Source: Desulfobacterales bacterium (GTDB lineage: Bacteria > Desulfobacterota > DSM-4660 > Desulfatiglandales > Desulfatiglandaceae). From it: a stretch of DNA of 5,443 bases. This document shows, in pieces, positions 3-5,443 of this stretch. Below the pieces are notes generated by a model that worked only from the letters and a program-made list of their open reading frames with translations, ran no database searches and had not been told where the DNA came from. How positions within the stretch are numbered: position 1 is the first letter of the stretch; each line of letters opens with the position of its first letter. The position numbers were made by a program, and so were the translations under genes. The stretch spans positions 1 through 5,443 of the forward strand of contig JAKLQB010000878.1 of NCBI GenBank assembly GCA_022013615.1, given 5' to 3'.

Positions 3-353
3 ATCATTCAAGCGGCTACCCACCTTTTCGCCGAACAGGGTTTTGAAGGCACCACCACCCTCCAGATAGACCATGAGGCCGGTGTCACGGAACCCCTGAT
101 CTATTACCACTTCAAGGGCAAAGACGACCTGTTCAGCCACATATTAGAAACTTCATTCAAAGCGTATTTTTCAAGTCTCGAAGCCCTGGAAAGAGAAACC
201 GGGACCCAGTTTAAAAGGATCGAGGCACTCCTGGATTTTCATTTCCAGTTTGAAGCAATAGGTGTCAGGCCTACACAGTTGACAATAAAGCAATCTGCAT
301 TACAGAAGTTTAGGCCGAGTTACGATTTGTTCCAAAACTTGCATGAATGTTGA
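3..353 (+). pseudogene. TetR/AcrR-family transcriptional regulator, truncated (5' end outside window)
   Basis: The frame from the left edge reads as the N-terminal DNA-binding domain of a TetR repressor. It starts within helix 1 (IIQAATHLFAEQGFEGTTTL), runs through the turn and recognition helix (IDHEAGVTEPLIYYHFKGKD), and continues into DDLFSHIL. These are hallmark TetR HTH positions, including the YYHF-K-K/D-L segment. About 86 codons look native. From 261 onward the protein is read out of the inverted-repeat element (residues GVRPTQ onward) and ends at TGA 351-353. TetR proteins are normally about 190-210 residues, with a helical ligand-binding C-terminal domain that is missing here. The product would bind DNA poorly if at all, because dimerisation uses the lost domain. 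The family call is firm; the regulated genes cannot be named. The remaining 5' codons lie outside the window. Confidence 0.85.
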
Positions 354-381
354 GGTGTGTGAAATGTGTAGGCCTGACACC
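261..381. mobile_element. 121-bp MITE/REP-like element with perfect 17-bp terminal inverted repeats
   Basis: The left end GGTGTCAGGCCTACACA (261-277) is the exact reverse complement of TGTGTAGGCCTGACACC (365-381). Each 17-mer is itself nearly palindromic around AGGCCT, with GTGT/ACAC arms and one bulged base. The 87-bp interior has no credible gene. The left flank is TetR coding sequence and the right flank is RecG-like coding sequence, so no common target gene and no obvious target duplication surround it. The ends resemble the G-G-x-G-T-C-A-x-G-x-C-T termini that I associate with IS200/IS605-like or RAYT-linked repeats. A related end appears at 1831-1854. It is probably non-autonomous, as no transposase is in the window. 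The inverted repeat is certain; the class is a guess. Confidence 0.7.
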
Positions 382-572
382 CATGCCTTTTCACTGGTCG
401 CCGAGGCTTTTCATCGCACAGGCGCGGTTGAGGTTTGGGGCCGCGGAACCAACCGAGTCATAGCGATGTGCGAGAAGCATGGTGCGGTTTCGCCGACCTT
501 TGAGGAACGGCAGGGCTTTGTCATCGTCACGTTCAAAGCAGCGATAGTCGAAGTCACGGAAAAAATATCGGG

Positions 573-605
573 GGCACCAGTCACGGCACCAGTCAGGGCA
601 CCAGT
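573..605 (+). repeat. three-copy 12-bp tandem repeat (GGCACCAGT core) inside the RecG-like fragment
   Basis: The 9-bp core GGCACCAGT recurs at 573, 585 and 597, a strict 12-bp (four-codon) period that keeps the frame and encodes APVTAPVRAPV. Members of this regulator family commonly carry short Q-V/P-V-rich repeats between the ATPase-like region and the winged helix. It is therefore most likely a flexible, slippage-prone interdomain linker and not a regulatory site. Confidence 0.75.
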
Positions 606-839
606 GCTCAGGCTTTTAGAACTTCTGTTTTCCAAGGGAAACCTCGGGAATGCAGAGATTCTTGCAGCATTGGGGCTTAAGAACCGTCGGCGGATGCGTG
701 AGACTTATATCGCCCCGGCGATGCACGCGGCGTTGATTGAGTATACTATCCCCGACAAGCCCAACAGCCGGTTGCAAAAGTACCGGCTGACATCAGCCGG
801 AGATAAGGTGCTGAGGGAACAACAACCGGGGAGGGCGAG

Positions 840-905
840 ATGCCCGCACAACCCACCGCATTTACCCCAGATATTCGAGGCAATGGCGTTTATGAAACAT
901 TCTGA
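840..905 (+). CDS. short open frame with strong ribosome-binding site; likely start of a lost gene
   Basis: An ATG at 840 is preceded by a purine-rich GGGGAGGGCGAG tract that would act as a good Shine-Dalgarno. The frame begins MPAQPTAFTPDIRGNG and stops at TGA 903-905 after 21 codons. It overlaps the end of the RecG-like fragment in another frame. A good ribosome-binding site joined to so short a frame suggests the beginning of a downstream operon gene that was later broken or frameshifted. I do not recognise the peptide. It may equally be chance. Confidence 0.2.
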   Translation: MPAQPTAFTPDIRGNGVYETF

Positions 906-916
906 ATTTTGAGATC

Positions 917-1854: not shown

Positions 1855-3276
1855 TTCTGTTACCGCTGGCCGTTACATGAGCGGGAAGGTCGAAGTTTCT
1901 CATATTTCTTTTCCGGATACCAAGAGCGAAATAATCTCGTAACGAAGTACTTAAACACTGATCCAGATTACGTTGTAGTTGTCCTTGATATTAAGAAATT
2001 CTACCCATCGGTTAATCGTGAGATTGTCTGCGAACGATTCAATAATCGTCTAATTGACTTAAAGGACAATAAACTTCGGGAATATATCAGCTCCACCTGT
2101 TGGCAAATGGTAAACGTGGCAGAGTCAGGTATTCCCATAGGGCCTGGTTTGAGTCATGTGCTTGGAAATTTAGCCTTGGAGAAGGTGGACGCCCGTATGA
2201 GCAAAAAGATTGGTGGTAGATACTTGCGATACGTGGATGACATCTTTCTGGTTTTATCTCCAAAGGAAATTAAAACCTCAGAACTAGCATTAAATGAGGT
2301 CGTTCGCTCTGAGGGTTTGGAGCTGCACGAAAAAAAATACGATCAGATGTCCACACATGATTGGATGGAAAGTATTCATAGTTTAGAAGAAAAAATGCTA
2401 GCTGATAGATTTCATGAATTTGTCCAACGCATTCGTCTTTTACTTTGGCTAAAACCAGATAAGCTTCCATCGCTTCAGAAGGTTTTCGCAGAGGAAGGAC
2501 TCTATATGCCCCTAAAAAGATTTTCACTTGATGCCCGATACGGCAGATTTCATCGCTTCATGGGTGGCATCTTGAAAACCTCACATTGGGGTTGGCAACA
2601 GGTATCACAGCTTCTTTCGGAAACAGAGGAGAGCCTCGTATACGCAGCTCACAAATTGTGCAATGATTTCCAGTCAATTCTTTACAAAATAGTCGACCTT
2701 GACTTGCCGGATCGTGGTATGATGAGGCGATTCCGTATACAGCGTTTACGTTTCGCATTGAATCGATTGCTATATCTTCTTCCTGTTGAGGATTATAAGT
2801 TATTACTCAATATAGCCCCAGATATTGATGAGCTTTTTGAATACCGCCAGTTAGTAAAAGCATTTGTTGAAGGAAATCTGGATCATATTCTTACAATTCC
2901 CGGTCCTGCTGTTTCAACATTTGCATCAATCTGGCATGAAAGAGGTGATAAAAAACTCATGGCATATAGTAAGAAACTCCTTGATGCCGAGGGATCTATT
3001 GAAAGCGTTTGCATTCTTTCTTCATTTGGCGTGATAGATCCACCGAAGTCATGGGTGGAGCAATTGTCTAAATCGGATGCTGAATTGATTCGCTTCAGTT
3101 TAATGTCTACTCCAGAAATGAGAATTTTAACGGATCATTCATTTGAAGATGAAATTCGTACGTTACAACTTGGAGTATCATCCGATGAAATGATAAGTAT
3201 AATAAATACTAGATTCAGTGATCTGGAAGCACTCAATCTTGACGGATTATTACTCTCGAAATATGGATCCGGTTAG
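1855..3276 (+). pseudogene. reverse transcriptase of the Abi/UG (defence-associated) type, 5'-truncated
   Basis: The open frame runs from TAG 1825-1827 to TAG 3274-3276 and is RT-like from about 1861. Counting from 1855, motif A is VVVLDIKKFYPSV (catalytic Asp about residue 45, codon 1987), motif B is GIPIGPGLSHVLGN (about 92), motif C is YLRYVDDIFLV (YVDD at 2230-2241) and motif D is GLELHEKKY (about 154). All palm catalytic residues are present. About 300 residues of mostly helical C-terminal sequence follow, with no maturase-X, HNH endonuclease or integrase signature, so group II intron and retrotransposon RTs are unlikely. It fits the Abi/UG RTs with helical-repeat C-termini used in phage defence; retrons are less likely. 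No ATG, GTG or TTG occurs in frame before ATG 2107, which lies after motif A, so the shortest normal product would lack one catalytic Asp. The N-terminal fingers are missing and REP-like sequence lies where they should be. RT identity is firm; subclass is open and activity is doubtful. Confidence 0.85.
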
Positions 3277-3290
3277 TTTGAGGGATGTAA

Positions 3291-3343
3291 CTTAAAAAAC
3301 TAAATAACTCAACACAAACAACATAAACTCGATTCTGTGATGG
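3291..3343 (+). repeat. 53-bp diverged direct repeat, copy 1 (upstream of DUF429-like fragment)
   Basis: Aligned without gaps to 5391-5443, 42 of 53 bases agree. Two 14-bp blocks are identical, AATAACTCAACACA (3303-3316) and CGATTCTGTGATGG (3330-3343), separated by a variable 13 bp. The second block includes the ATG of the DUF429-like frame. No Shine-Dalgarno or convincing -10/-35 pair is conserved between copies. It could be shared upstream sequence of two related genes or a recombination site; the sequence alone does not decide. Confidence 0.7.
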
Positions 3344-3636
3344 AATTAGCCGTGCAACGAATGCACCCACCACACCGCATCTATGGTATCGATTTCAGCG
3401 GGGCTCAAGACGCAGGTAAGAAGATCTGGATTGCCGAAGGCGTTGTAAAGGGAGACTCGTTTTTGATCGAAGATTGTTTCAGGGCAAGAGATTTACAAGA
3501 TTCAGGAAATGAACGGTACAAATATCTGCCCGTGTTAAAGGATTTCATGAAGGAGAATCAAGATGCGGCGTTCGGCCTGGATTTTCCTTTTAGCAACGAA
3601 ATGAATAAATCACGGAAAGCATTATGGACCTCATGA
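3340..3636 (+). pseudogene. DUF429-like predicted RNase H-fold nuclease, N-terminal fragment
   Basis: The frame contains IYGIDFSGAQDAGKKIWIAE near its start and AAFGLDFPFS near its end. These are the two signature strands of the DUF429-like family (GIDFSGA...K.IWIAE and GLDFPF), each carrying an Asp expected at an RNase H-like active site (residues 18 and 81 counted from ATG 3340). Family members are usually about 230-260 residues, with a further conserved region after GLDFPF. Here the similarity stops right after FPFS, and 14 unrelated residues lead to TGA 3634-3636. The N-terminal third has therefore been retained and the rest lost. GTG 3337, ATG 3340 or ATG 3361 could start it; none has a good ribosome-binding site. 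The stop overlaps ATG 3633 of the next gene as ATGA, so the fragment may still be translated and coupled to it. Family call fairly confident; function as a 98-residue protein doubtful. Confidence 0.65.
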
Positions 3637-5351
3637 CACATTTGGTATACGAGGATATTTTTAACCAAATAGGAAAAAGTGGCTTGACCCTCCCGTTGTC
3701 ATGTCTTGGTGATAAGAGAGTTATTGATGAATTAATAGACGAACTTATAAGCGGGTTGGACCCGGTAGAGGCCATTTCATATAGTTCGTTCTTGAACATG
3801 ATTGTACAGACCTGCGAACCAGAAGAATCAGCGCGATTAGGAAGAAAGGAGATTGCGGCTGTTGGTTTTAGAAAAAAAATACCGGACACCAAAGTTTTTT
3901 TCCATAGGGATTGCCTGTTACATATGATGTCGCGGATAATCGCGGGCAGTAAAGACGGAACTATGCGCATAACGGGTGGAAGCGACAGGCGCGGGACGGC
4001 AAAATACTATAAAGCATTACTCCTTATAAACAGCAAAATCAACACTAACACAGAAGATAAACGACACACTCTCCTAAAGGATTATTTCATCCGAGATTAC
4101 CCTCCGACTTATTCTCCCACTACCACAAGTACTATCTTTAAAAATAGACTGCAACGCTACTGGTATATCTATAACCATATATTACCCAAAATGGAAAAGC
4201 GCAAAGCAGAGTTAATCAAGAAAGGTATAGATGTTCTGAAAAAAGATTCGGGGCTGACTCTGCGAGAACATTATTTAGTGTTAGCTGGCATACTGGGCTG
4301 GTTTTTGATATTACCGGTTGAAAAACAAAAAAGTCAAAATGAAGAAATATCTATATTAGGATTTGATTATCGCAATATTGGCAGTTTTTATATAAGAAAG
4401 AATAATTTCCCCGATGCCGACCGATTTATTTGCCTTATTAAGTCTCTTGCGCAAGACAAAAATTGCATACAAAAACACTTTGCCAGAAAAAGGCGAGACG
4501 AAGTAACTGGTTTTTATAGGCACTTCAGTGATTTCTTTGACCGGCCTGTCTTTAAGATTGACGATGACAGTTTCTGCATACTCGATTTGAAGTTTCTCAT
4601 TGAAGGTTTATGCTCCGGACTCCTATGGCGCATAAACGATATAGCATCTTCCAATGGCGGACTTCAAGGTCTGAAAGGATACTACGGTCAACTTATCGAA
4701 AAATACTTTGACTTTCTTCTTGAACAGATATTCGGTCATACCAAAATTTCTAAATCTGCAGGCAGCGGCCCTGATTCGATTGTCGAGACCGACGACTATT
4801 TGATCATTTTTGAATTTACGACTGAATATTACAGATTTTCATCGCTCTATAACGCATCGACAAACTCTTTTGTGGAGGATTTGCATCGGTTGCTTTTTAA
4901 TATAGGAGAGAGTGATCCGTGTGGCAGAAGCAAGAAGGACAAAGGCAAGTTCTTCAAGCTTAACGAATATCTGAATTCTACGGGAAAACAGGGAAAAACA
5001 GTTATACCAATCCTTGTTACCGAAAATTATCTCGGCGATTATGATCTCCTGAATCAGTTTGACAATTTCCTTGATAAAAAAATTCAAAAATATGGATTGA
5101 CAAACATTCTGAAACATAAGCCTTTAATCCTTTGTCTCGATGACCTTGAAATATTTTGGGCGTTGAGTAGTGAAGATAAAGCTATACAGGAGTTAGAAAC
5201 CCGCCTTCAGACTTGGGAAAAATCTGACAAAGGGAAGTTTTTGTACAACTTCTCTTATTTCATATCGAGCCATAGCGACGCTATTATAAAAAGTAAAAGC
5301 TACACAAACTTTTTTGATTATTCCAAATTTTGGGATGAACTTGCAAAATGA
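3624..5351 (+). CDS. uncharacterised 575-residue protein with PD-(D/E)XK-like C-terminal domain
   Basis: This is the only long gene here that looks intact. Residues 1-350 are mainly helical and charged, with no family I recognise. Around residues 355-515 the layout suggests a PD-(D/E)XK nuclease fold: YYGQLIEKYFDFLLEQIF (helix, Glu359), GPDSIV (Asp384), LIIFEFTTEYYRF (Glu397), then a helix, a strand PILVTENY and a final strand-turn KPLILCLDDLEIFW. The usual E-x-K lysine is Thr399, so catalysis may be lost, altered, or rely on a nearby basic residue such as Arg403. No signal peptide is seen. ILGWFLILPV is short and hydrophobic but probably buried in a soluble protein. ATG 3624 has GGAAAG four bases upstream; ATG 3633 forms an ATGA overlap with the preceding stop, so either start is possible. 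The setting beside an RT and flanking repeats suggests a defence effector. That and the fold are inferences. Confidence 0.8.
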   Translation: MDLMTHLVYEDIFNQIGKSGLTLPLSCLGDKRVIDELIDELISGLDPVEAISYSSFLNMIVQTCEPEESARLGRKEIAAVGFRKKIPDTKVFFHRDCLLHMMSRIIAGSKDGTMRITGGSDRRGTAKYYKALLLINSKINTNTEDKRHTLLKDYFIRDYPPTYSPTTTSTIFKNRLQRYWYIYNHILPKMEKRKAELIKKGIDVLKKDSGLTLREHYLVLAGILGWFLILPVEKQKSQNEEISILGFDYRNIGSFYIRKNNFPDADRFICLIKSLAQDKNCIQKHFARKRRDEVTGFYRHFSDFFDRPVFKIDDDSFCILDLKFLIEGLCSGLLWRINDIASSNGGLQGLKGYYGQLIEKYFDFLLEQIFGHTKISKSAGSGPDSIVETDDYLIIFEFTTEYYRFSSLYNASTNSFVEDLHRLLFNIGESDPCGRSKKDKGKFFKLNEYLNSTGKQGKTVIPILVTENYLGDYDLLNQFDNFLDKKIQKYGLTNILKHKPLILCLDDLEIFWALSSEDKAIQELETRLQTWEKSDKGKFLYNFSYFISSHSDAIIKSKSYTNFFDYSKFWDELAK

Positions 5352-5395
5352 AAGATAGGCGAGAATATGAAATAGGTGGTCCGGGACGTCCTTAA
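5348..5395 (+). pseudogene. 15-codon frame coupled to the 575-residue gene; likely stub of a lost gene
   Basis: ATG 5348 overlaps the TGA at 5349-5351 as ATGA, the arrangement typical of translationally coupled operon genes. The peptide MKDRREYEIGGPGRP ends at TAA 5393-5395, and the second direct repeat begins at about 5391. The frame thus ends where unrelated repeat sequence begins, as if a former downstream gene was replaced by the repeat and whatever follows. Chance cannot be excluded for so short a frame. Confidence 0.3.
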
Positions 5396-5443
5396 ATATT
5401 TCAATAACTCAACACAGCCAGCATTGATCCGATTCTGTGATGG
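5391..5443 (+). repeat. 53-bp diverged direct repeat, copy 2 (at window end)
   Basis: This is the second copy of the 3291-3343 sequence, 42/53 identical and in the same orientation, with AATAACTCAACACA at 5403-5416 and CGATTCTGTGATGG at 5430-5443. The window ends just after ATGG, the position equivalent to the start codon of the DUF429-like frame. A second, possibly complete, DUF429-like gene may start at 5440. The repeat may extend past the edge, so its true length is unknown. Confidence 0.7.

Follow-up and report, generated by a model that had tools for sequence, protein, structure and literature searches.

The one-ended elements of the IS91/ISCR type have one precise end and one ragged end, and they carry adjacent genes along. 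In integron cassette arrays, co-oriented accessory genes lie between related repeats. The TIRtron/TIRYT elements (Y1 subclass 2.1) are described as having a Y1 transposase with a C-terminal DnaA-like HTH, and terminal inverted repeats that start with GGGG and also occur as dispersed families and dimers; the TIR motif GGGGWSAS is published for the majority of TIRYT elements, not for all of them (PMC3733652, PMC6006769). The C-terminal helix-turn-helix expected of a TIRYT element is one of Bac_DnaA_C, HTH_23 or HTH_28. In the case of REPs, REPINs and RAYTs, it is presumed that a Y1 protein mobilises the dispersed short repeats in trans (PMC3733652, PMC6006769). It is an open question by which route defence and toxin–antitoxin genes are brought together outside integrons and phages; the locus described below bears on it.

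The window, that is, the whole stretch of DNA that was analysed, is an entire contig of 5,443 bp. The sequences at 3291–3343 and 5391–5443 are identical at 42 of 53 positions when aligned without gaps, and their starts are 2100 bp apart. This is the top 53-mer self-match within the window, and the best of 12 first-order Markov shuffles, which reach only 30–34 identities, gives 34/53: the direct repeat reported in the preliminary description is real. Each copy was also said to begin soon after the end of a gene or frame and to finish at a possible start codon, and this is so: the copies, as noted below in their full extent, begin 5 nt after the reverse transcriptase-like frame (which ends at 3276) and 31 nt after a 575-aa ORF (which ends at 5351), and GTGATGG, the start of a DUF429-like stub, is present in both. 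The right end of the contig falls within copy 2, which suggests that the assembly probably halted in a multi-copy repeat. The motif is also found near contig ends in related genomes (for example, G038:C79, G036:C240, G055:C107 and G089:C321), and contig ends at such repeats make “cassette” readings of a single contig unreliable.

On balance, we favour the interpretation that the 53-bp repeats represent the left end (LE) of small mobile elements, a family dispersed in the genomes of related uncultured bacteria, whose units would move by one-ended Y1 transposition, followed by recombination between copies. Copy 1 is longer than first noted: positions 3282–3591 align to the copy of the related genome G015 (L046/L159) with 88.4% identity. 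It consists of a degenerate terminal-repeat part (GGGATGTAACTTAAA..AATAACT, 3282..3309), a leader with weak promoter-like hexamers (score 7/12) that includes the GTGATGG stub start (3310..3343), and the 5' part of a DUF429-like gene (the stub, 3337..3591), where the homology to G015 stops at 3591 and the open frame continues to 3636; the block originally noted (3291–3343) straddles the terminal-repeat part and the leader. Copy 2 (GGGACGTCCTTAAATATTTCAATAACT and the leader, 5383..5443), which is cut at the contig end, aligns over its 61 nt to the same G015 copy with 98.4% identity, versus only 79% identity to copy 1, so that the two repeats do not form the matched pair initially supposed. All these features, and the genes around them, are on the plus strand, and the window reads as two joints in succession: RT / LE–stub–575 / LE.

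The gene 5' of copy 1 (1942..3276) is a UG36-type reverse transcriptase frame (PADLOC RT_UG36, E 2.5e-97, profile positions 135–551 of 557, and a Pfam RVT_1 match), which is without about 134 N-terminal positions of the profile. The 575-aa ORF (3624..5351) has no match in Pfam or PADLOC models; its C-terminal half probably has a PD-(D/E)XK-like nuclease fold, and the closest structural neighbour in a second structure comparison is named Upx. The name of the DUF429-like stub rests on one protein match (41.9% identity over 73% of the stub): the 99-aa stub matched no Pfam family and PF04250 was found in 0/3 genomes, although the model may fail to detect so short a stub. We also note that, in the first part of the window (3–912), a pair of 40-nt inverted repeats (245–284 / 358–397) lies where a TetR frame passes into a Fic-like_C/HATPase_c_4 fragment, so that here too truncated genes are joined at a repeat.

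When 26 bases from the blocks shared by the two copies were kept fixed in a search pattern, three MAG contigs matched, two from genomes named Deltaproteobacteria and one from a genome named Desulfobacteraceae. A composite copy used as query gave 46 matches at E 0.01 in all three of these genomes (6, 21 and 19). By pooling several searches we catalogued 37 LE–DUF429 copies, the 2 of the window and 35 in seven related genomes (17 in G002, 11 in G003, 3 in G038, and one each in G001, G015, G033 and G083), two of which, L176 and L192 3438, are possibly one locus seen at contig ends. They have a common layout, GGGACGTCC-NTAAATA-NNNN-AATAACT followed by a leader ending in GTGATGG and by a DUF429-like 5' part that is cut at differing points. 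Two G002 matches without a left end were dropped from the alignment set (L041 2113 and 3043; the latter, without LE and N-terminal part, continues into the remainder of the DUF429-like gene), as were three G078 matches to the terminal repeat (L157, L158) and L001, which is the same place as L045.

In the coordinates of the G015 copy, the left ends lie at q1–q8 in 33 of the 37 copies, hence agree within 8 nt, and at q11–q21 in the other 4. The right ends are scattered from q50 to q311; these are BLAST ends, and some copies resume past a gap (L034 9846 by eye, L042 2677, and the rep2 types). Two copies are cut by contig ends, and six are alike only for the first ~51 nt before other sequence follows, two of which (L036 9426 and, judged by its module, L205) rejoin the DUF429-like sequence further on. 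Homology extends upstream of the LE in five copies (L034 9846, L039, L043, L191 and L197), over ~50 nt in L039, L043 and L191, and a shorter upstream homology is common to L041 7146, L042 2677 and L198. The copies are not all independent, since one stub–module junction is common to three genomes.

A conserved anchor next to which genes are swapped, as proposed in the earlier view, is not supported: the DUF429-like stub is itself part of the repeat and is found at many loci. Open frames of 255–286 aa that are related to the stub occur in 8 of 148 genomes, and BLAST of their loci gave no LE 5' of these frames. Among the candidates listed, an intact gene behind an LE–DUF429 end was not found; the searches for it, in which two candidates were scored per genome, returned at least 15 of 297 and at least 6 of 395 genomes.

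The motif GGGACGTCCNTAAATANNNNAATAACT was found, with at most 2 mismatches, in 58 of the 197 genomes around G003, and the reversed control gave 2 matches in total. At five loci, two motifs face each other 1084–1115 bp apart, around a single ORF and with inverted 27-bp ends. The five ORFs all match Y1_Tnp above cut-off, and all five have a C-terminal Bac_DnaA_C match at E 7e-4 or better (above the Pfam cut-off in 2/5). The outer 27 bp of the LE is the terminal repeat of TIRYT-type Y1 (HUH) transposase elements, and these five two-ended elements fit the TIRYT elements, or Y1 subclass 2.1, as they are presented in PMC3733652 and PMC6006769, with ends that read (G)GGGACGTCC and do not match the published TIR motif. 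The left ends of the two-ended elements all contain promoter-like hexamers at a spacing of 17 bp, with scores of 8–10 out of 12; none of the five right ends (RE) reaches 8, and 3.4% of random positions do. Among 14 DUF429-type leaders scored, 13 are at 7–9 and one is at 6; a score of at least 7 is attained by 14% of random positions, so it is doubtful that the copies of the window have a functional promoter.

Truncated relatives of the elements are also found: in L148, the LE occurs four times in direct orientation among small genes, each time with a truncated transposase 5' end, and the points of truncation are at least two. The motif also forms short inverted doublets, six of 67–121 bp and two of 210 bp among those listed. 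In one lineage, the LE leader precedes a DUF429-like gene in place of the transposase. No oppositely oriented motif (at most 4 mismatches) was found in the scanned loci with LE–DUF429 copies, so no two-ended unit was seen there, and the window contains neither a transposase ORF nor an inverted motif (right end): its copies are a derivative of the TIRYT family, not an intact member. As a separate observation, the motif copies of L147 and L152 are all in one orientation, opposite to most surrounding genes, ~1–3 kb apart, and between small genes, some of which look toxin–antitoxin-like by eye. Positions 1831–1854 of the window (AGAGTCAATCAAAGACTTGACCCC) are, by eye, close to the sequence that follows three motif copies in L147 (G038:C79).

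The search of related genomes that the preliminary description had called for was fruitful, as copies were found flanking different genes at many loci. A left neighbour could be called for 33 of the 37 copies; it is co-oriented in 29/33, and a co-oriented stop lies within 60 bp in 14/33, versus 47% and 17% respectively for 3410 random intergenic points, a control that omitted points inside ORFs, a filter that was not applied to the copies. The binomial value for 29/33 is 1.1e-6, which overstates the significance because the copies are related, and the bias is weaker over the whole motif family (55/92). The ORFs come from a simple longest-ORF script, and left neighbours are possibly several hundred bp away. 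A listing of neighbours at a distance of up to 350 bp covered 29 of the 37 copies and came to 43, of which 32 were scanned. Upstream, they include GMP synthase, isocitrate/isopropylmalate dehydrogenase, LUD, GNAT, cupin, SLFN_AlbA_2, AbiEii, HTH_3 and helicase genes; downstream, they include Fic (two), HigB, SLFN_AlbA_2, EcsC, DUF1877, PilZ, HTH_3 and ATPase genes, a transposase fragment (rve) and several genes without a match. The neighbours are mixed on both sides, and a bias towards accessory genes downstream is only an impression.

The edges of the modules were obtained from an all-against-all comparison of selected loci. The gene of the 575-aa protein was found in 1 of 395 related genomes, as an internally deleted copy in G002 (G002:C337) with homology only to window positions 3593–3713 (92.6%) and 5030–5358 (93.6%). 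The module so delimited (outer limits 3593..5358) begins 2 bp from the stub and stops 25 bp before copy 2, and the neighbours are different in G002, where the upstream sequence differs and no LE–DUF429 stub is in front; a diverged LE-like motif can be recognised by eye ~13 nt past the stop of the G002 copy. The idea that this gene is a cassette is thus borne out in part, as it recurs from the stub junction onwards beside other neighbours, but it is not bracketed by a matched pair. A module with an 81-aa ORF is 98% identical over 251 nt in G003 and G002, with homology that begins within ~10 nt of the stub end, and an 809-nt LE–stub–module unit is common to the same two genomes, with homology that begins 4 bp outside the LE and flanks that differ. 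The 575-aa, 81-aa ORF and 809-nt modules fit moving units. In G003, G002 and G038, a module that contains an EcsC gene (by the Pfam scan of the G038 copy) lies behind one and the same stub junction, with differing sequence on the LE side; rep2-type and DUF429-type copies likewise have a stub–module junction in common and different LE sides, while L040 and L193 are alike upstream and over the first ~46 nt of the LE and then diverge. The EcsC module and the L040/L193 pair fit recombination inside the repeat. We also observed a ~620-nt module with an identical palindromic right edge (ACGTAAT..ATTACGT) in four genomes (L035 10883–11503, L043, L151 and L207), which has an LE in front in two of them.

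The dehydrogenase gene shared by G015 and G033 is 95% alike, and the homology parts 4 nt past the stop, after which G015 has an LE, a stub and a HigB gene, and G033 has other DNA; the locus varies, then, but does not qualify as an empty site. When the dehydrogenase locus was compared across 41 genomes, 4 matched, one of them closely, and no clean empty site was found. At the GMP synthase locus (41 genomes), the homology stops at the stop codon in the 36 other genomes with a match, and there is no empty site either. The expected empty site with a single repeat was therefore found at neither of these two loci. The case that was to refute the cassette reading, namely that tandem paralogues at a locus that never varies merely have the repeat in common upstream, fails because the loci differ. 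The notion of reusable boundaries survives in that the repeat lies between different genes at many other loci: the boundaries recur, but not as matched recombination sites.

In the mechanism that we favour, a Y1 transposase acting in trans would cut at the LE, transposition would stop at arbitrary points on the right, so that downstream DNA is carried along, and later recombination between dispersed LE copies would reshuffle the modules. One-ended Y1 transposition would explain the near-constant left ends and the ragged right ends, and recombination between copies would explain the EcsC module and the L040/L193 cases. A different possibility, which we take seriously but find somewhat doubtful, is that the repeat was passive: truncated LE copies would have been inserted, or would have decayed, beside pre-existing genes, and ordinary homologous recombination among copies would have swapped modules, a transposase taking no part in the joining. 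Cross-overs inside the repeat can indeed be seen (L040/L193, and rep2-type versus DUF429-type copies), upstream extensions are common to subgroups of copies, and short inverted doublets of the motif exist; nevertheless, recombination alone leaves unexplained that one end is near-constant and the other ragged, and that the orientation is biased (29/33). If the favoured mechanism is pushed further, a left end whose leader resembles a promoter, together with a TIRYT-type Y1 transposase that acts on it in trans, might constitute a one-ended gene-capture system, which would assemble accessory and defence genes into co-oriented series downstream of host genes and so do the work of an integron with neither integrase nor attC; we put this forward as a speculation that is rather unlikely.

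An attC-like nature of the repeat, with mobilisation by an integron integrase, is very unlikely. Co-oriented genes, some of toxin–antitoxin or defence type, do lie between repeats, and an integrase (TIGR02249) is above cut-off in 5 of the 10 genomes searched (G001, G003, G015, G025 and G038), but G002, the genome richest in copies, has none above cut-off, and Y1 elements have this motif as their terminal repeat. Furthermore, a home-made search for attC-like sites (R'' RYYYAAC ... R' GTTRRRY), which has no positive control and also gave 0 in four integrase loci, found 0 in the window and none in 13 of 14 other loci; its sole other result was a pair of hits at a single place in L152, one on each strand. 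A stretch of L147 that we had taken for an attC by eye was not reported by this search. An attL/attR-like nature of the repeats, or their origin as the target-site duplication of a single inserted element with the 575-aa gene on it, can hardly be maintained: two direct copies flank this gene, but copy 1 extends ~250 bp further into a gene, and the copies resemble each other (79%) far less than copy 2 resembles that of G015 (98%), an unequal ancestry that counts against this reading unless copy 2 underwent conversion at a later time. The suggestion that an imperfect inverted pair in the shared blocks forms recombinase arms is not upheld either, since in L034 9846 TCAACACA is TCGATATG next to an unaltered TGTGATGG. 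Carriage by a phage or a plasmid was also considered and rejected: the whole window had no match when compared with phages, and the repeat pattern had 0 matches in viral contigs; against plasmids, neither the DNA of the repeat and stub nor the 575-aa protein had a match, and the stub protein had one distant hit. Rfam gave 0 matches in 12 sources.

Titles and abstract openings of the literature on DUF429, on Y1/REP/cassettes and on Desulfobacter/integrons contain no description of the LE–DUF429 arrangement. As regards TIRtrons/TIRYT, the likeness lies in the transposase with its DnaA-like C-terminus and in the GGGG start and dispersal of the terminal repeats; unlike what PMC3733652 and PMC6006769 describe in the parts on which we rely, the terminal repeat of the LE family reads GGGGACGTCC / GGGGACGT, which GGGGWSAS does not fit, and the copies of the window carry a DUF429-like stub in place of the transposase, have no right end and lie between other genes. 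Like REPs/REPINs/RAYTs, the LE family has short inverted doublets, but one-ended units with gene fragments do not appear in the same parts of these two papers. The resemblance to integron cassette arrays is in the arrangement of the genes; unlike in the latter, no attC was found in the window by a crude search, the window has no integrase, and the right ends of the repeat are variable. A dispersed transposon end with a near-constant left border and a ragged right border provides a concrete, searchable boundary between host genes and other genes. In having one near-constant and one ragged end it is like IS91/ISCR, whose transposase family differs from that of the LE family, so that the likeness is one of pattern only.
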